Source of the DNA: Anaerococcus octavius
GTDB lineage: Bacteria > Bacillota > Clostridia > Tissierellales > Peptoniphilaceae
Length of the DNA stretch: 64,000 nucleotides
Assembly (NCBI RefSeq): GCF_900445265.1
Contig: NZ_UFTA01000002.1
Location: 806,001 to 870,000 of the forward strand
Direction of reading: 5' to 3'
The position numbers were made by a program, and so were the translations under genes. The notes under the pieces were generated by a model, which saw only the letters and a program-made list of their open reading frames with translations, made no database searches and had not been told where the DNA came from. Shown here in pieces: positions 1 through 7,997 of the stretch; position 1 is the first letter of the stretch; each line of letters opens with the position of its first letter.

Positions 1-469
1 TTATTGCTGCAATCCTTTGTTTTTGTCCACCTGATAATTCCTTAGGATACATATTTAAACAATCATATACATCCAACTTTTTAGCCAGTTTTTCGATGTT
101 TTCCATATCTATTTCTTTATTATGAATTATAAATGGCACTTCTATATTTTCCAATGCTGTCATATTTTCAATTAGTCTATAATCTTGAAAGATATTTGTA
201 ACTTCGTTTCCTCTATACTTTTCTAAATCTTTGCGGCTAAATTTATTTAAATTTTTGCCGTCAAAATTTATCTGACCATTAGTAGCTTCTACTACACCAG
301 AAATCATGTTTAACAAAGTAGTTTTACCTGAACCACTCATTCCCATTATCCCCAAAAATTCACCTTCTAACAAGTCTAAGCTAATATCATTAACTGCAGT
401 TATATATTCATTTGTAGTTCCATATATTTTATTTAAATATTTGACGACCAAAATACGTTTAAATTTCAT
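1..469 (-). CDS. ABC transporter ATP-binding protein (partial, runs off the left edge)
   Basis: The first 156 residues of an ABC ATPase are present; the C-terminal part lies outside the window. Walker A reads GMSGSGKTT (about residues 43-51), the Q-loop is IFQD (93-96) and the signature is LSGGQKQR (145-152). The order and spacing fit the LolD/MacB/BceA class of ATPases that energise FtsX-like permeases, judging by the segment ENMTALENIEVPF after the Q-loop. The ATG at 469 follows a GAGG ribosome binding site. Walker B and the partner permease cannot be seen, so the substrate (peptide, bacitracin-like antibiotic or lipoprotein) is unknown. Confidence 0.85.
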   Translation of the reverse strand, partial: MKFKRILVVKYLNKIYGTTNEYITAVNDISLDLLEGEFLGIMGMSGSGKTTLLNMISGVVEATNGQINFDGKNLNKFSRKDLEKYRGNEVTNIFQDYRLIENMTALENIEVPFIIHNKEIDMENIEKLAKKLDVYDCLNMYPKELSGGQKQRIAAI

Positions 470-502
470 TTTTAACCTCAGTTAAAATATAGTATTATAT
501 AT

Positions 503-531
503 AAAAAGTAAACTGCAAAAATGCAGCTTAC
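503..531 (-). terminator. Rho-independent terminator of the 235-aa gene
   Basis: A 10-bp stem (508-517 with 522-531, one G-U pair) closes a short loop and is followed on the minus strand by a T run. It overlaps the stop codon of the upstream gene. Confidence 0.7.
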
Positions 532-1235
532 TTTACTTCTTCAATACTTTTTGCTTGTGTCATTTCACTTATCTTTGATAAATAGTAATTATAAACTCCC
601 TCTACATCATCTGTTGATTTTAACCAAGTTGTAGTAACTTTCCCTTGGCTATTATCAAGATATGATAATATGAAATTTCCATTTTTATCATAAATTTCAT
701 ATCCATCATTCAATTCATCAGATAAAATTGTTTTATAACCACCATCTATTCTCTCTACTGTCCTAGGTAAATCTCCAAAAACTTTTATTACTTCTTTTTC
801 ACCATAAGTAAGTGGATTTGAAGTTGTAATCTTAGCAATTTTATGATCATTTATTTTATCAGTGTAATAGTTATTCTTATTAAAATTTAACCAATATCTA
901 TTATCACCATCTGATATAAATATAAATCCACCGTTTTCTTTAAGTTGACCATCTATCATTATTCCTTTATCTAAGTCATCACCGCTAATCTCAGTATAGT
1001 TTATGCTTCCATCATCTGATTTTAATTTATAATAATTAACCTCTGATCTATATTCTTTTTTTAATAGTTTCTCTACAAACTCTCTTTTTACCGCATCAGA
1101 ATTATTCATCAATTCATAAACTTTTTCTTTTTCTGTTGCATTTTCATTCTCATAATAGTTGTTATTAAATCCTACCAACGTACTTACACCTAATAAAACA
1201 ATAGCTGTTTGAATAAAAAAATTAAATTTTTTCAT
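528..1235 (-). CDS. Membrane-anchored or secreted protein of unknown function
   Basis: This 235-aa protein has one hydrophobic N-terminal segment (about residues 7-23) after a Lys start, so it is exported or anchored. No lipobox cysteine is present. The rest is a hydrophilic domain rich in Asp, Asn, Lys and Tyr with a likely beta-rich pattern, and I recognise no family. The ATG is preceded by a strong AGGAGG site. It lies between the helicase of the trio upstream (57-bp gap, no terminator seen) and the ABC ATPase gene downstream. It could be an accessory extracytoplasmic protein of that transporter, but this is inference from position only. Confidence 0.6.
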   Translation of the reverse strand: MKKFNFFIQTAIVLLGVSTLVGFNNNYYENENATEKEKVYELMNNSDAVKREFVEKLLKKEYRSEVNYYKLKSDDGSINYTEISGDDLDKGIMIDGQLKENGGFIFISDGDNRYWLNFNKNNYYTDKINDHKIAKITTSNPLTYGEKEVIKVFGDLPRTVERIDGGYKTILSDELNDGYEIYDKNGNFILSYLDNSQGKVTTTWLKSTDDVEGVYNYYLSKISEMTQAKSIEEVK

Positions 1236-1291: not shown

Positions 1292-3421
1292 TTAGTTGTA
1301 AGAATTAGATTTAAAATTAGATTTGTCTATATTCACATTCAGATACTTGTATGCGCCTTCTAGGTCAAGATAATTATTTATAACATATTCTGCTCTCAAA
1401 TTCTCAGGAACTAAAACCATGTACTTATTTGCAATAAGATATGCATCTAACAAAGTTTTTTCTTTAAGCAAAAATTTAAATATTTGATCTTTGCTTACCG
1501 GATTTATTCTGCTCTCATCAAAAATTTCTGGTGTATTGGGACCACAAACCATACTATCAGCTTCTGAAATAAAATATGAAGTAGATTTGCTGATTATATT
1601 AAACATAATAGCAAGCGTTCTATTTATCTTTGTAGACTGAAATGTCATAAGACCTATATAATCATCTTCTACAGAAAATGGATAGTGGTAAGGTTTTAAG
1701 GCATCATGCAACTCATAGATATATTTTTTAGAATCGTCATCAAATTCAAACTCGTTTGGGTTATCAATTATAAATCTCATTCTTTCTCTAATAATAGGAC
1801 TGATATCTACATTCCCTGCTGATAAGAATTTTGGTGGTGCTCCTTCACTTGCAGCTGAAACACGAATTTTTTTGCTGTCTCTATATATTTTATCTATTTT
1901 CCAAACTTGACCAGCTAAGAATATATTTGCCTCTTCTTGAACTTCTGGACGTATTTCTATTTCCCCAATTTTTCCACTTTCGTTATAGACAGTAAATGCC
2001 TTTGCAGTTATAAACTGATTATAAAAACTGCCCATGTACATTAGTTTATCAAGATTTATACCTGTTATAACTTCATTTTCTAATATTTCTATATATCCTT
2101 CTTCTTGCATAAAGTCAGTAATTTTTTCAAATTCTTTATCTGTAATATCAGAAAAAGTGGCTAGTGTTTTGTTTAAATATTTATACTCTTCAATAGACAA
2201 TCCATAATTTTCTAATAAGCTAGACAAAACTTGGTGGGCAAATACATCATAGGCCTTTGTAGTTGCTTCAATCTTGTCTAAAACACCATCTTCAAAAAGG
2301 CTGATTGCTGCCATTGCTTGCAAAGCATCATACACATCAGTATTTATTTGATGTAGGATTGATTTATGAGTTTTCCTTCCACTTCTGCCTAATCTTTGAG
2401 CTAAGGATAAAACTGTGTAAGGTGCACCATATTGGACAACAGAATGAACTGAACCTATATCTATCCCAAGTTCCAGAGTAGAAGTGGCAACTATAACATA
2501 ATTTTCATTTTTAGATTCTTTTGCAAATTCTTCTATTTCCTGCCTACGACTTTTGCTAACTGATGAATGATGTGCAAAAATTTTTATATCATCACCATTA
2601 TGTTTATATAAATTTGCCAACTGAACTGAAATAAGTTCTACCTTTTCTCTAGAGTTAGGAAAAATTAGCATAGGACCTTCTAATGAATAATCGTGCATTA
2701 AATTTATGTACTCATTTGAAACTTCTATTGCTTCTGTCAGATTAAAAGTATATTCAAAATCATTTTGAGTTTTATCTACTAAAATATTTGTATTTTTACC
2801 ATTATTAAAAAAAGATTTTGCCAAATTATAATTTAAATCTCCAATTGTGGCAGAAAGTCCAATCATACGAGGAGCTTCGTATGTAAATCTTAATATACGG
2901 TCTAAGAGTGATTTTAATTGTAGTCCGCGATTGCCTGATAAGAAAGAATGTATTTCATCTACAATTATATAATCAAGATCAGCAAATAAAATTTTTGCTA
3001 CTTCAGATTTTCCAGATAGCAAAGCTTCAATAGACTCTGGTGTTATTAATAAAATTCCTCTAGGAGATTCAATTAAATTATCTTTTTTTGCCTTGCTAGC
3101 TTCTCCATGCCAAGATGTAATAGGTATATTCATATCTAAACACATGTCATTTATACGTTTAAATTGGTCATTTATAAGGGCAATTAGTGGAGAAATATAT
3201 AAAATCTTTACTCCCTTATCCCAATTATCAATCTTACTTATTGCAGGCAAAAAAGCAGCTTCAGTTTTGCCAGAAGCTGTAGCTGCTGATAAAATCAAAT
3301 TATTTTCCGTATTAAAAAATGCTTTTATAGATGCATTTTGAATCTTAGTTAAAGCTGGCCATCCTTTTTCATGAATATAAAATCTAAGCTCTCTATTTAA
3401 TAATTTAAATGAATCAGTCAT
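1292..3421 (-). CDS. DEAD/DEAH-box helicase, Lhr/BrxHI-like
   Basis: A 709-aa superfamily 2 helicase. Visible motifs are the Walker A-like ATASGKTEAAF (about 47-57), DEIH (155-158), SAT (190-192), TSTLELGIDIG (313-323) and QRLGRSGR (342-349). The two RecA-like domains are followed by about 350 residues resembling the C-terminal part of Lhr-type DNA helicases. It is the last gene of a three-gene set: its ATG overlaps the stop of the BrxD-like ATPase gene by 4 bp, which indicates translational coupling. In BREX type 2 a helicase of this kind (BrxHI) also accompanies BrxD. Helicase activity is secure from the motifs; a role in phage defence or DNA repair is inference. Confidence 0.85.
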   Translation of the reverse strand: MTDSFKLLNRELRFYIHEKGWPALTKIQNASIKAFFNTENNLILSAATASGKTEAAFLPAISKIDNWDKGVKILYISPLIALINDQFKRINDMCLDMNIPITSWHGEASKAKKDNLIESPRGILLITPESIEALLSGKSEVAKILFADLDYIIVDEIHSFLSGNRGLQLKSLLDRILRFTYEAPRMIGLSATIGDLNYNLAKSFFNNGKNTNILVDKTQNDFEYTFNLTEAIEVSNEYINLMHDYSLEGPMLIFPNSREKVELISVQLANLYKHNGDDIKIFAHHSSVSKSRRQEIEEFAKESKNENYVIVATSTLELGIDIGSVHSVVQYGAPYTVLSLAQRLGRSGRKTHKSILHQINTDVYDALQAMAAISLFEDGVLDKIEATTKAYDVFAHQVLSSLLENYGLSIEEYKYLNKTLATFSDITDKEFEKITDFMQEEGYIEILENEVITGINLDKLMYMGSFYNQFITAKAFTVYNESGKIGEIEIRPEVQEEANIFLAGQVWKIDKIYRDSKKIRVSAASEGAPPKFLSAGNVDISPIIRERMRFIIDNPNEFEFDDDSKKYIYELHDALKPYHYPFSVEDDYIGLMTFQSTKINRTLAIMFNIISKSTSYFISEADSMVCGPNTPEIFDESRINPVSKDQIFKFLLKEKTLLDAYLIANKYMVLVPENLRAEYVINNYLDLEGAYKYLNVNIDKSNFKSNSYN

Positions 3422-4743
3422 ATTATTTCTATCTCATCGTCCATATTGTCAGGATCTTTTGTTATACCAAGGATATCTTTAAATCGATCTCTTATAATGT
3501 CAATTATTTCAACAGCTGGATTTTGCCTTTTTAAATCAAGTATTTCTATAAAGTCTTTAATTACAGCTCGAGGTGTTAAAAATTCATCAGCTCCAGGTCT
3601 ATTTAATTGACCTTCCATATAGGTAATTATTTCATCTTCAGAAATTTCTATAGATTCTTTGTAGTAAGCATTATAAACATTAACTAAATTTTCTAAAAGC
3701 GTATATATCTCTTCGTTAGTAAGTGGTTTTAAGGCTAAAACTGTACGATTTGTATTTACTAATTTATTATCCATACTTTCTTCGCTACCAAGTCTACTTT
3801 TTAAAGCCCCATAGGATGCTAGTCCTCTATTTTCATCAAAAACTGTTTTACGAGTTGCACCAAAGTTTATAAATAAGCCCTTAGCAATATTTGATTTTGC
3901 CTCATTGTAAATGTTTAAAATACGTTCATAATTTCTTTCGCGAATAACTGACTGTGGAATTTTATATAGGTTTACTGCTTCATCAAAATTTACAACAAAA
4001 CCACTATACCCAATGCCCAAAAATAACTCGCTCATATTTTTTAATGCATCAAACCAATTATCGTCATTAATTATTTGATTTATTCCAAGGATTTTTTTTG
4101 CTTCAGTCTTTGTAGTGATATCTCCCCTTAGCCATCTAATAGAATTGGTTTTTAAAATTCTATTATCGTTTATAAAGCCTTCATAAAATTTAACTAATGC
4201 TTGTCCAAATTCAAATGATAGTCCTACAGCACTAAAATTGGCTAATACGTTTAATATTTCATTTGTAACTTCTTTTTGATAGCTTCCTTCAATTATTTCC
4301 GATATTTCTACACCTAAATTTTTTGCGACACTTTGGAATATTTGATTTAGCCATTCTTCTATTATGGAACTTAGTACATTGCCATTTTTTATTGTTTTTG
4401 TTTTTATATTATCAATGATTTCTGTATATAAAGCAACTGCCTTTCTATCTGTAGCATAAAATCTTCTGGATGGATTCAAATCTAAGCTAGAAACAACAAA
4501 GTTTTTTTGTAGAGCAAGTTGTTCTATAGTAGCAAGCATAAAACTTTTACCAGATCCAAAGTCACCAACCCAAAAACGAATATCACTTTCTCCGTCAGCC
4601 ACTTTATCTAAAATTTTTATTACTTCTTCAACTTCTTTGTTTCTACCAACTAAAAGATGTTGGACACCCATATTGGGTACTACTCCAGCTTCTAGTGATT
4701 TTATAATAACTGATGCTTCTTTCGGATTAATTCTTGCTGCCAT
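3418..4743 (-). CDS. BrxD-like P-loop ATPase (DUF2791/BREX ATP-binding family)
   Basis: A 441-aa ATPase with Walker A GDFGSGKS (60-67) and Walker B GFVVNFDEA (248-256). The WLRGDITTKTEAKKILGI block (204-221) and the later DENRGLASYGALKSRL block (303-318) are, from memory, hallmarks of the DUF2791 family that includes BrxC and BrxD. Its start lies inside the 3' end of the TerB-C gene (17-bp overlap) and its stop overlaps the helicase start, so the three products are probably made together in fixed proportion. No pglX methylase or pglZ phosphatase is next to it, so this is not a complete BREX system. Molecular role unknown; the ATPase probably remodels a DNA-bound complex together with the helicase (inference). 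Confidence 0.8.
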   Translation of the reverse strand: MAARINPKEASVIIKSLEAGVVPNMGVQHLLVGRNKEVEEVIKILDKVADGESDIRFWVGDFGSGKSFMLATIEQLALQKNFVVSSLDLNPSRRFYATDRKAVALYTEIIDNIKTKTIKNGNVLSSIIEEWLNQIFQSVAKNLGVEISEIIEGSYQKEVTNEILNVLANFSAVGLSFEFGQALVKFYEGFINDNRILKTNSIRWLRGDITTKTEAKKILGINQIINDDNWFDALKNMSELFLGIGYSGFVVNFDEAVNLYKIPQSVIRERNYERILNIYNEAKSNIAKGLFINFGATRKTVFDENRGLASYGALKSRLGSEESMDNKLVNTNRTVLALKPLTNEEIYTLLENLVNVYNAYYKESIEISEDEIITYMEGQLNRPGADEFLTPRAVIKDFIEILDLKRQNPAVEIIDIIRDRFKDILGITKDPDNMDDEIEII

Positions 4744-6475
4744 TTACATACTCCTTTATCATGTCTATATAAAATTCATCTATTATTATTTTATCATCCT
4801 CAATAACTAGAGTCTGATCACCTATATAATCATATAAGGATTCATTGATATTTCCTATAAAGGTATTTAAAGTAAGACCTTTATTTTTTGCCAATTTCTC
4901 CATCTCATCTGTACTCATATAATCATTACATAATATTTTTTTTAAAATATTATTATAGGACTCATCATTTACTTGTACTATATCTTCGTTATTATCTTCG
5001 ATATCAATTGTATCTTCTTGATCAAAAAAATCATTTACTAAGCTTACAGTTTTATTTAAATTCTTTCTTGAAATATCAATTTTCTTATTATCTATTTTTA
5101 TTTTTTTAGGGGCCTTTTTTTGCAAACTAATTATTTGATTAATAACATCTCTTGTAAGTTCTTTTTCTTTAACTATTTTTAAAAATTGATCATAATTTGA
5201 TTTATCTATAATCTCAAGTAAGTATTTGTCATGATTATTTTTGTTTACATTATTTTTATAAATATAATATAATCCTATTATTTTATCTTCCTTTTGACCT
5301 TTTCTTTCTAATTCATTTAATATTTTTTCAAAATTATCATATCTTTCATATTCTTTTATGATATCGATTTTAGAGTCTATACTTAAATCTAGAAAATATT
5401 TTAGAAAATCTTTTAATTTATTAGGATTATTCTTAAAATAATCTCGGTATATATCATCAACCATCTTTGAATCCATATTTTTTAAATAATCATATTGATA
5501 ATTCTCTATAAAAGATAATATTTCTCTATTTTCTTTTTCCTCTAGCAAAGATAAGGATTTTTGTATAGAAATTTTTCCATAAAAGGAAAATTTTTTCCTA
5601 AGATTATTTTCACTTATAATCAAAATAGCATCTAATATGTCCTTAGATTGCTTATAAGGTTTTATGATTTTGATTAATTTTTTTGTATCAATTTGCTTAC
5701 AATCAAAAAGCTCTTTTAATGTAGATAAGTACAAATCCATAAGCAAGTTAAATACTTTTTTATTATTCCACAATACATTTGACCTTTTAGATATTTGATC
5801 TATTGCTATTTGTTCATCTTTACTAAATTTATACTTTCTTCTTAAATTGCCTTTAGGGTCCCACCATAAAGAAACTTGATTGTTATTTGTTAAATTGAAG
5901 TATTCTCTTGTTTGTTTATCTGCAGGCTTTAAATGTTTTTGTAGTTCATTTGCTTTATTTTCTAATAAAACTCTTGCTTTGTGATCTATATAATGCTCAA
6001 TAATTTTGTATGATTTTTCAGCTGATTTTTTTGATAAGGGATTATAAAAATTTAACACTTGTGTTTCGGCAATTAAATATATAGTATAATATAAGTCAAA
6101 ATTTACTGTCTCTCTTCTAAGCTTTGAAACCAACCTTGCAACTGTTGTACCATCGTCATTTAGATAAATTTCCAAGCAATCACAAAGTTTTGCGTATATT
6201 TTAAGGGCAGCTACATTTAATTGATTGATTCTCATTGCTTTTGATTTGTAATGACGATCTAGTTTAAGTATCCAATACCTATAATCTTTTATCATTGGAT
6301 GGTTATTTTTTATTCTAGGTGGGATTTTTTCTGGAAGATCTAGGCTGACGTCAATTATTCCTGATATTTCATTTGCTTCTATTTTTCTTTTAAAAGTTTG
6401 TTTTTCACCTAATTGAAGCTTAGAGATATCACTAGCTATGTTATCTATCATTTTTTTGAAATCATCATATTTCAT
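4727..6475 (-). CDS. TerB-C-domain protein, first gene of the helicase/ATPase module
   Basis: A 582-aa, Lys/Asp/Asn-rich, mostly helical protein. The C-terminal about 65 residues (from NNILKKILCND to DEFYIDMI) match the pattern I know for TerB_C domains, with a winged-helix-like layout and the NINE...DYIGD signature. The N-terminal third has a conserved-looking tryptophan/tyrosine segment (DYRYWILKLDR) in the place where a TerB_N-like domain would sit, but I am less sure of that. It lacks nuclease or methylase motifs. A promoter and an AGGGGG ribosome binding site directly upstream mark it as the head of the three-gene transcript. It may be the sensor or DNA-binding scaffold of the module (inference). 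Confidence 0.65.
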   Translation of the reverse strand: MKYDDFKKMIDNIASDISKLQLGEKQTFKRKIEANEISGIIDVSLDLPEKIPPRIKNNHPMIKDYRYWILKLDRHYKSKAMRINQLNVAALKIYAKLCDCLEIYLNDDGTTVARLVSKLRRETVNFDLYYTIYLIAETQVLNFYNPLSKKSAEKSYKIIEHYIDHKARVLLENKANELQKHLKPADKQTREYFNLTNNNQVSLWWDPKGNLRRKYKFSKDEQIAIDQISKRSNVLWNNKKVFNLLMDLYLSTLKELFDCKQIDTKKLIKIIKPYKQSKDILDAILIISENNLRKKFSFYGKISIQKSLSLLEEKENREILSFIENYQYDYLKNMDSKMVDDIYRDYFKNNPNKLKDFLKYFLDLSIDSKIDIIKEYERYDNFEKILNELERKGQKEDKIIGLYYIYKNNVNKNNHDKYLLEIIDKSNYDQFLKIVKEKELTRDVINQIISLQKKAPKKIKIDNKKIDISRKNLNKTVSLVNDFFDQEDTIDIEDNNEDIVQVNDESYNNILKKILCNDYMSTDEMEKLAKNKGLTLNTFIGNINESLYDYIGDQTLVIEDDKIIIDEFYIDMIKEYVNGSKN

Positions 6476-6505: not shown

Positions 6506-6535
6506 ATTATACCTTTTAAGTATTTTTGCGCTCAA
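6506..6535 (-). promoter_or_regulatory. Promoter of the TerB-C/ATPase/helicase operon
   Basis: On the minus strand a perfect -10 TATAAT (6506-6511) lies 18 bp downstream of TTGAGC (6530-6535). It sits just past the terminator of the preceding operon and about 30 bp before the start codon at 6475, so the module has its own promoter. Confidence 0.55.
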
Positions 6536-6594: not shown

Positions 6595-6789
6595 TTAGTG
6601 GTAGTAAGATTTTGCTAGCCCATCTTCATTTGCTAAAATATACTCATCTACCAAAAAATTGTTCTCATCACTATCTTTTATTCTGTATACTTCATAGCCC
6701 TCATAATCTCCCAGGTAGGAAATTCCACTATCTTCTTCAAATTCTTTTATAACAAATTCTAAAGCTTCATCATAATATTTGTTTTCCAT
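6595..6789 (-). CDS. Small acidic protein A, paralogue of the upstream gene
   Basis: A 64-aa cytosolic protein with about 18 Asp/Glu against 5 Lys/Arg. It aligns over most of its length with the next upstream protein: ALEFVIKEFEE against VLEFVQNEYDG, then ISYLGDYEGYEVYRI against INYLGEWESYDCYEI, then YILANEDG against FALVNENG. The two are therefore a tandem duplication. Only a weak ribosome binding site precedes the ATG, but the 7-bp gap suggests coupling with the upstream gene. I recognise no family and assign no function. Confidence 0.65.
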   Translation of the reverse strand: MENKYYDEALEFVIKEFEEDSGISYLGDYEGYEVYRIKDSDENNFLVDEYILANEDGLAKSYYH

Positions 6790-6796
6790 ACTTTGC

Positions 6797-7030
6797 CTAA
6801 CCTATGTCAAAAAAATGCACTATTTCATAATCTTCATCACTATCAGAAATCCTTACACCATTTTCATTTACTAATGCAAAAGCTCCAACACCATCAGTCT
6901 CTTCATCCGTATTTATCTCATAGCAATCATAGCTTTCCCATTCTCCTAAATAATTTATGTCTGTATAACCATCATATTCATTTTGTACAAATTCTAAAAC
7001 TTGATCTTTGCTTCTTTCTATTAAAGTCAT
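6797..7030 (-). CDS. Small acidic protein B, paralogue of the downstream gene
   Basis: A 77-aa, strongly acidic protein (about 21 Asp/Glu). The ATG at 7030 is preferred over an in-frame TTG at 7042 because GAGG lies 6 nt before it; that site overlaps the stop codon of fructosamine kinase. It shares the YLG-(D/E)-x-(E)-x-Y-(D/E)-x-Y-(R/E)-I core with its neighbour and adds an acidic C-terminal tail (SDSDEDYE). Function unknown. Confidence 0.65.
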   Translation of the reverse strand: MTLIERSKDQVLEFVQNEYDGYTDINYLGEWESYDCYEINTDEETDGVGAFALVNENGVRISDSDEDYEIVHFFDIG

Positions 7031-7038
7031 ATTTCGCC

Positions 7039-7893
7039 TCAATAATTAAGTATATTTTCCATAGTCATATTTACAGATGACTCATATAACTCACCAAATT
7101 TAATTAAATGAACCATATAAAGATATAGTCTATAAAATTCAAGTCTTAACTTACAGCCTTCTTCTAGAGGATATAATTCATTATATCTACTATAAAATTC
7201 ATCATTAAAACCACCAAATACCGTTGTAATTCCTATATCAAATTCTCTATCACCATAAAATGGACTTGGATCAAACAAAGCTGGTGATCCATCTTTTAAA
7301 AACATATAATTACCTGCCCATAAATCTCCATGAAGTAAGGATGGCTCAGATTTATGATTTAAAAGTTCTTCTTTCATTATTTCGTAGACTTTTTTATATT
7401 TTTCAAAATCATATGAAGTCCATAAATCCAATTCTATTAATTGCTTAGCTAATACATCCATTCTTTGATCTAAGAAAAGTTCAGACCATGTCTCAACCCA
7501 TTCATTAGTAAAAGATGTACTTGATCCTCTATATTCGTAGTCAAAACCAAACTTATCATTGGGACTTTTATATTTGTGCATATTTGCTACTGTTTCTGCA
7601 AGTTCGCTTTGTGATCCTATACTTCCTTCGTCTAAAAAAGATAAAAGCAAATAGGCATCACCATCACAGAAGCCATGATCAATTACTTTAGGAGCTTTTA
7701 TACCAATCTTATCAAAAAGTTTTAATCCTGCTATTTCACCATCATAAAAGCTTCCATCACAATTTCTTTGAACTAGCATATAGTATAAATTATCATTTGA
7801 GTATATTTTATAAGCATCATTTACATCATCACCACCAGAAGCTGCTCTAATATCAGTTACTTCTACTGGTAATTGTTCAATAAATTTTTCCAT
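7039..7893 (-). CDS. Fructosamine kinase family protein
   Basis: A 284-aa kinase of the fructosamine/ketosamine-3-kinase family, which phosphorylates Amadori-type glycation adducts (protein deglycation or sugar-amine use). The catalytic loop is LLHGDLWAGNYMF and the metal-binding segment is FDPSPFYGDREFDIG, as in aminoglycoside-phosphotransferase-like folds. The ATG at 7893 has an AGAAGGTG site upstream; an in-frame GTG three codons earlier is less likely. It is the first gene of an operon with two small acidic proteins. Confidence 0.85.
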   Translation of the reverse strand: MEKFIEQLPVEVTDIRAASGGDDVNDAYKIYSNDNLYYMLVQRNCDGSFYDGEIAGLKLFDKIGIKAPKVIDHGFCDGDAYLLLSFLDEGSIGSQSELAETVANMHKYKSPNDKFGFDYEYRGSSTSFTNEWVETWSELFLDQRMDVLAKQLIELDLWTSYDFEKYKKVYEIMKEELLNHKSEPSLLHGDLWAGNYMFLKDGSPALFDPSPFYGDREFDIGITTVFGGFNDEFYSRYNELYPLEEGCKLRLEFYRLYLYMVHLIKFGELYESSVNMTMENILNY

Positions 7894-7997
7894 ATATAAC
7901 ACCTTCTTATAAGCTACTTTTACCCTTACTTATATTTTACAAACTTATAAAGGTATAAAATAATTTTTACAAACCATTTTTTAAAATTGTTATATGA

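Follow-up and report, generated by a model that had tools for sequence, protein, structure and literature searches.

The window analysed here, a stretch of 64,000 nucleotides from the 1.91-Mb genome of Anaerococcus octavius (contig NZ_UFTA01000002.1, positions 806,001 to 870,000), contains three overlapping minus-strand open reading frames (ORFs), which we assign to the genes sngA, sngB and sngC of the Shango system (Table 1). An earlier reading, made from the sequence alone (the sequence-only reading), had described a TerB_C-type protein, a BrxD-like ATPase and an Lhr/BrxHI-type helicase, encoded by genes overlapping by 17 bp and 4 bp. The ORF coordinates confirm this arrangement, with the 17-bp overlap between sngB and sngA and the 4-bp overlap between sngC and sngB, and all three proteins are matched by the corresponding Pfam and PADLOC profiles. 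In Pfam, the helicase matched DEAD (1.8e-30), Helicase_C (1.8e-17) and, below threshold, WH_Lhr (4e-5, 23.5 bits versus a cut-off of 27). The ATPase matched BrxC_BrxD (3.3e-121), and the third protein matched TerB_C over residues 449-573 (1.6e-12). Among the PADLOC profiles, SngC scored 561.5 bits on the helicase (9e-169) compared to 361.2 for BrxHI, and SngB scored 482.5 bits on the ATPase (3.3e-145) compared to 139.8 for BrxD. The SngA profile scored 63.1 bits (9.5e-18), aligning protein residues 225-575 to positions 269-525 only of its 528. The three genes are adjacent on one strand in the order sngA-sngB-sngC, which is the Shango layout. By profile and layout, the trio is almost certainly Shango, an already-known anti-phage system, and we give the reading of the window trio as a Shango anti-phage operon a probability of about 0.75. 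The first report of Shango is said to be that of Millman in 2022.

Table 1 Features of the sngA-sngB-sngC locus and its borders in the window.
Feature	Position	Strand	Description
sngA	4727-6475	-	582 aa; mostly helical front, C-terminal TerB_C modelled as winged-helix-like
sngB	3418-4743	-	441-aa P-loop ATPase, BrxD-like
sngC	1292-3421	-	709-aa SF2 helicase, Lhr-core-like
Putative trio promoter	6506-6535	-	TTGAGC, 18, TATAAT; basis: position only
FN3K-like kinase gene	7039-7902	-	Upstream border of the slot, outside the system; Pfam Fructosamin_kin 1.3e-69
PepSY-like protein gene	528-1235	-	Outside the system; sub-threshold match; opens the neighbouring ABC transporter/two-component run

According to published work (PMC10250203), Shango of Pseudomonas aeruginosa PA14 consists of a TerB-like protein, an ATPase and a DEAD/DEAH helicase. 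The system lowered plating 10-100-fold for many, although not all, phages and also protected in liquid culture, and the evidence includes P. aeruginosa PAO1 (PMC10250203). A 2026 review lists its mechanism as unknown (PMC12926258). The sequence-only reading had proposed a candidate defence or DNA-processing system; the system already has a name and published anti-phage activity (PMC10250203).

Both predicted motors have intact ATPase and helicase motifs. In the two alignments, each with 19 rows including 15 from the genus, SngB is invariant at G60, D61, G63, G65, K66 and S67 (Walker A) and at D254 and E255 (Walker B). SngC is invariant at T48, A49, G51, K52 and T53, at D155, E156 and H158, and at G345, R346, G348 and R349. 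An AlphaFold2 model of SngC (predicted local distance difference test, pLDDT, 84.6) aligned to Mycobacterium smegmatis Lhr (5v9x) with a Z score of 28.7 over 626 residues (root-mean-square deviation 3.9, model residues 2-699), followed by MrfA as second-best structural match (Z 22.4). As modelled, SngC is an Lhr-core helicase fold across its whole length, beyond the shared helicase domains. In the literature, SngC is grouped with BrxHI, DruE and DpdJ in one defence-tied helicase clade (PMC12278908), and BrxD is classed as an ORC/Cdc6-type AAA+ protein and proposed to be a loader or activator of BrxHI (PMC12839542).

SngB occurs in 19 of the 31 Anaerococcus genomes, the window's own included, and SngA and SngC adjoin it in each. 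In all 19, the genes stand in the same order with overlapping frames (4-23 and 1-4 bp when the longest ORF defines each start); the grouping is therefore not due to chance. Of 398 genomes sampled across the phylum, 25 contain an SngB relative at 1e-30, the window genome included, and an SngC-like frame adjoins SngB in all 24 others, two of which are BREX-like. The upstream frames were scanned for 22 of these, cut at about 1.5 kb, leaving out L131 (masked bases) and L133 (no frame found). TerB_C was present in 20 and TerB_N in 19, and the other two frames (L134 and L135) carry SAP or PglZ domains and have a BREX-like look.

SngA is the variable component. Pfam detected TerB_C in every one of 18 SngA rows, which comprise 15 of the 19 from the genus and those of G050, Vagococcus silagei and G036, and it detected TerB_N and TerB in none of them at 0.1. 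A sixteenth SngA from the genus likewise has TerB_C without a TerB_N or TerB match, and in five genus members the protein is shorter (453-473 aa). The AlphaFold2 model of SngA (pLDDT 81.7) is mostly helical and ends in a small winged-helix-like part at about residues 500-582. In VIA-align, the top rows were mainly winged-helix proteins over this end, with weak scores (Z at most 6.3), and the helical middle gave weak rows such as the retinoblastoma pocket (Z 5.6); Foldseek returned nothing below 0.001. A hidden TerB_N domain was considered and rejected, as it was seen neither by Pfam nor by profile comparison with the 22 upstream proteins. A genome-wide search for TerB_N gave 0 of 31, but is uninformative, as the control genomes gave no match either.

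The window trio resembles known Shango, for example that of P. aeruginosa PA14 or a plasmid copy from Pantoea vagans (L136), which served as our comparison copy. It shares with these the A-B-C order, the TerB_C protein, the BrxD-like ATPase and the Lhr/BrxHI-like helicase, and the same PADLOC profiles win. The Pantoea SngA, however, carries TerB_N, TerB (PF05099) and TerB_C, whereas the window SngA has TerB_C only. The Pantoea protein also covers almost the whole SngA profile (309.8 bits, positions 12-525), unlike the window protein. The Pantoea copy also lies on a plasmid, while the window trio sits in a fixed chromosomal slot. In a plasmid trio from Hymenobacter monticola (L137), TerB_C is the sole Pfam match of SngA at 0.01, the SngA, SngB and SngC profiles win, and SngB is 44% identical to that of the window; it differs by a 505-aa SngA, by being plasmid-borne and by its Fic and BRCT neighbours. 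SngA with TerB_C alone is therefore not private to the Anaerococcus lineage. The nearest sampled outgroup trios in the SngB tree are those of V. silagei (L042) and the same-order genome G050 (L065). Their SngA proteins, like that of the window, have TerB_C and no TerB_N match, but unlike it they have TM2, a membrane domain, at their N-terminus (4.1e-10 and 4.6e-10; genes at L042 7921-10002 and L065 10373-12493). This sequence feature suggests a membrane-tethered Shango in these bacteria. Literature searches on TerB-N/TerB-C with a helicase, and on TM2 with SngA, found no paper.

Within Anaerococcus, the position of the trio is fixed. In 19 of 19 genomes it lies upstream of, and on the same strand as, a 306-aa gene termed HEPNx, at distances from direct adjacency to about 10 kb; for five of these, the HEPNx position is known from coordinates only, outside the fetched 20-kb stretch. 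The FN3K-like gene flanks the other side in 15 of the 19 and is also found in three genomes without the trio. Twelve of the 31 genomes lack the trio, as judged partly from drafts that are 82-99% complete, although in each of these 12 the sequence of the slot itself was inspected. In G022 and G026 it is empty, with FN3K directly beside HEPNx and about 60 bp between them, and in G010 a pirin-like gene, by our own reading, takes the place of the trio. The nine further genomes are also without FN3K, and their slot holds other genes, which we read as ABC transporter, macro-domain, sugar-metabolism or efflux genes, joined in G001 by a transposase-like gene. HEPNx itself is present in 31 of 31. Among the neighbours scanned, PADLOC gave weak matches only: a small gene matched JAB at 3.2e-5, the macro-domain gene matched DarG at 1.7e-4 and HEPNx matched RTasHEPN at 0.039. 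No defence island was seen at the trio among these neighbours, the rest of the window lying outside the scan.

Trees of the three proteins follow that of RpoB. Over 19 genomes, SngA shares 13, SngB 12 and SngC 12 of 16 splits with RpoB (12, 13 and 13 in an earlier tree build), compared to at most 3 after label permutation; all trees are quick LG+G4 trees, and that of RpoB comprises 30 of the 31 genomes (G026 without locus). For neighbouring genes, the shared splits amount to 17/22 (HEPNx), 11/14 (FN3K), 16/17 (F9s) and 7/14 (Pcp); with Pcp at only half, the neighbours are not uniformly congruent with RpoB. Two other defence markers from the genus share fewer. Cas1 shares 2 of 22 splits when pooled and 0/9 and 5/10 by type, as an imperfect control usable in 25 of 27 genomes (G022 had no usable frame, G026 is outside the RpoB tree) that mixes two types, split by profile score, which lowers the pooled count. 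HsdM shares 0 of 5 splits for eight proteins, left from ten entered after two without a usable frame. It was matched in 15 of the 31 genomes (seven over the cut-off); some of the eight proteins are partial and may belong to related methylase families, and five more genomes, where the match scored lower or was shorter, were left out. Since the SngA, SngB and SngC trees are RpoB-like, as are those of neighbouring core genes, Shango is largely vertically inherited in Anaerococcus, much as a core gene would be, and it keeps one chromosomal place. Presence and absence on the RpoB tree imply at least three changes. One of them, which may be a gain or a loss, separates the nine-genome side from all other genomes, and two lie inside.

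A core-genome position combined with a housekeeping phenotype had been named by the sequence-only reading as a point against defence. The position is core-like and inheritance largely vertical, but 12 of the 31 genomes manage without the trio, which is therefore dispensable. We know of no housekeeping phenotype for it.

The genes are under purifying selection. Across ten pairs, the ratio of non-synonymous to synonymous substitution rates (dN/dS) is 0.03-0.10 for SngB, 0.07-0.15 for SngC and 0.12-0.24 for SngA, as whole-gene values and with dS above 1 in several pairs. By slope, SngA evolves at 9.6 times the rate of RpoB, compared to 4.0-8.1 for four neighbouring genes. Between G020 and G027, dS is 0.17 for SngA versus 0.78 for SngB, which suggests piecewise exchange between close relatives and speaks against strictly clonal descent. 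Across the locus in G020, G027 and G029 (L051, L052 and L050), dS values also lie several-fold apart (permease 0.06-0.08, SngB 0.29-0.92), which points to allelic exchange among these closely related genomes.

How the predicted parts might work together can be sketched by analogy with BrxD and BrxHI. SngA, with its variable helical front and winged-helix-like TerB_C end, would be a recognition or scaffold subunit. SngB would assemble into an AAA+ oligomer acting as loader or gate for SngC, which in turn would move along invading DNA, unwinding it or stripping proteins from it, with the result that replication or packaging of this DNA would fail. No nuclease domain was seen in the trio proteins, so motor action would suffice or a host nuclease would finish. 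Taken alone, this loader-motor mechanism is tentative, and we consider the odds to be somewhat against it. Several points weigh against an anti-phage Shango operon as a whole. The match to the SngA profile is partial, and the front half appears not to be common to canonical SngA; correspondingly, in hhalign the genus-type and canonical SngA groups align in their C-terminal region only. The loader-motor mechanism is drawn from analogy, and a sequence search of the PDB turned up nothing related to SngA or SngB. The predicted anti-phage activity is likewise carried over from other Shango copies and not from that of the window, and core-like inheritance may leave room for a host role.

We consider it rather unlikely that the Anaerococcus copy is aimed mainly at plasmids or conjugative elements instead of phages. 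Constant retention would suit a constant threat, as which plasmids and integrative and conjugative elements may qualify, and Shango is found on some Escherichia coli islands that carry the antiplasmid system ApsAB (PMC11096173). However, the published Shango tests examined concern phages (PMC10250203), and plasmids carry SngB relatives themselves: such relatives, counted singly and not each confirmed as a whole trio, occur on 684 of 72,556 plasmid records, of which 541 are called conjugative. Among 50,697 phage records, no phage-borne copy was matched. A 2026 study describes conserved Shango as overrepresented in prophages, and highly conserved species-level defence systems have already been described there (PMC13064858).

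Similarly doubtful is a more far-reaching view, in which Shango would have ceased to be a mobile defence gene. On the 21-genome side of the midpoint-rooted RpoB tree it would now be a vertically inherited resident core module with a rebuilt SngA front and a constant job, either in the continuous surveillance of foreign DNA as it replicates or in host genome maintenance. That the trio is a host module derived from Shango, serving DNA repair or replication restart, seems improbable. The fixed slot, the RpoB-like trees, the low dN/dS and the fact that Lhr and MrfA are the nearest solved folds of SngC would all fit such a role, but the absence from 12 of the 31 genomes, the fast evolution of SngA relative to its neighbours and the treatment of the system as defence in the Shango papers examined argue against it. 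A BrxD-BrxHI pair left over from a decayed type 2 BREX was rejected as highly improbable: BREX type 2 does contain a homologous ATPase-helicase pair, whose profiles SngB and SngC also match, but both proteins score far higher with the SngB and SngC profiles, the window SngB stays below the BrxD equivalog (BREX_BrxD, NF033438; 141.3 bits versus a cut-off of 350), PglZ (PF08665) was found in none of the 19 trio genomes (with 2 of 14 positive in the control search), and the gene upstream encodes a TerB_C protein. PglX and PglW gave no match among the neighbouring genes scanned, with no genome-wide search made. The trio is, as the sequence-only reading had it, a separate three-gene module of two DNA motors and a TerB_C protein, with no BREX genes beside it.

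The same reading had placed the trio under one consensus-like promoter. A TTGAGC-18-TATAAT match does end 30 bases 5' of the sngA start; however, there is no excess of such matches, with 52 found versus 52.1 expected in shuffles, so that only position speaks for this putative promoter. By our own reading, a hairpin with a T run lies just upstream of it; the terminator scan did not list this hairpin, and the promoter and terminator scans are uninformative.

As to the neighbours, HEPNx lies about 5.5 kb left of the window (G000:C1:799615-800532; L067 3612-4532), and in five genomes it stands directly 3' of sngC. We read in it an R-x4-H stretch like that of HEPN and a possible PD-(D/E)XK-like stretch; its best Pfam match is at 0.012. 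HEPNx was rejected as a system-specific Shango effector, as all 12 Shango-less genomes keep it. Between FN3K and sngA, there are two small acidic, apparently related minus-strand genes (6595-6789 and 6797-7042, about 64 and 81 aa), the larger of which gave the weak JAB matches. As a fourth component these were rejected, since only 4 of the 19 trio genomes have such genes (the window's by reading). Window positions 1-1235 and the DNA leftward of them (L067 6175-11235) encode a run of a PepSY-like protein, an ABC ATPase, a large permease, a response regulator and a histidine kinase, which follows sngC in 11 of the 19 trio genomes. This run resembles a peptide-antibiotic sensing and export operon.

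Shango itself is known; our analysis adds its genus-wide fixed slot, its largely vertical inheritance and the changed SngA. Searches for Shango or defence systems in Anaerococcus found no relevant paper in the literature covered, which mostly excludes subscription papers. In this genus, one defence system tracks the species tree, unlike Cas1 (pooled) and HsdM. With SngB and SngC strongly constrained, SngA evolving fast and its canonical N-terminal domain lost or replaced, the Anaerococcus copies provide natural variants for telling the conserved motor and the variable part of Shango apart.

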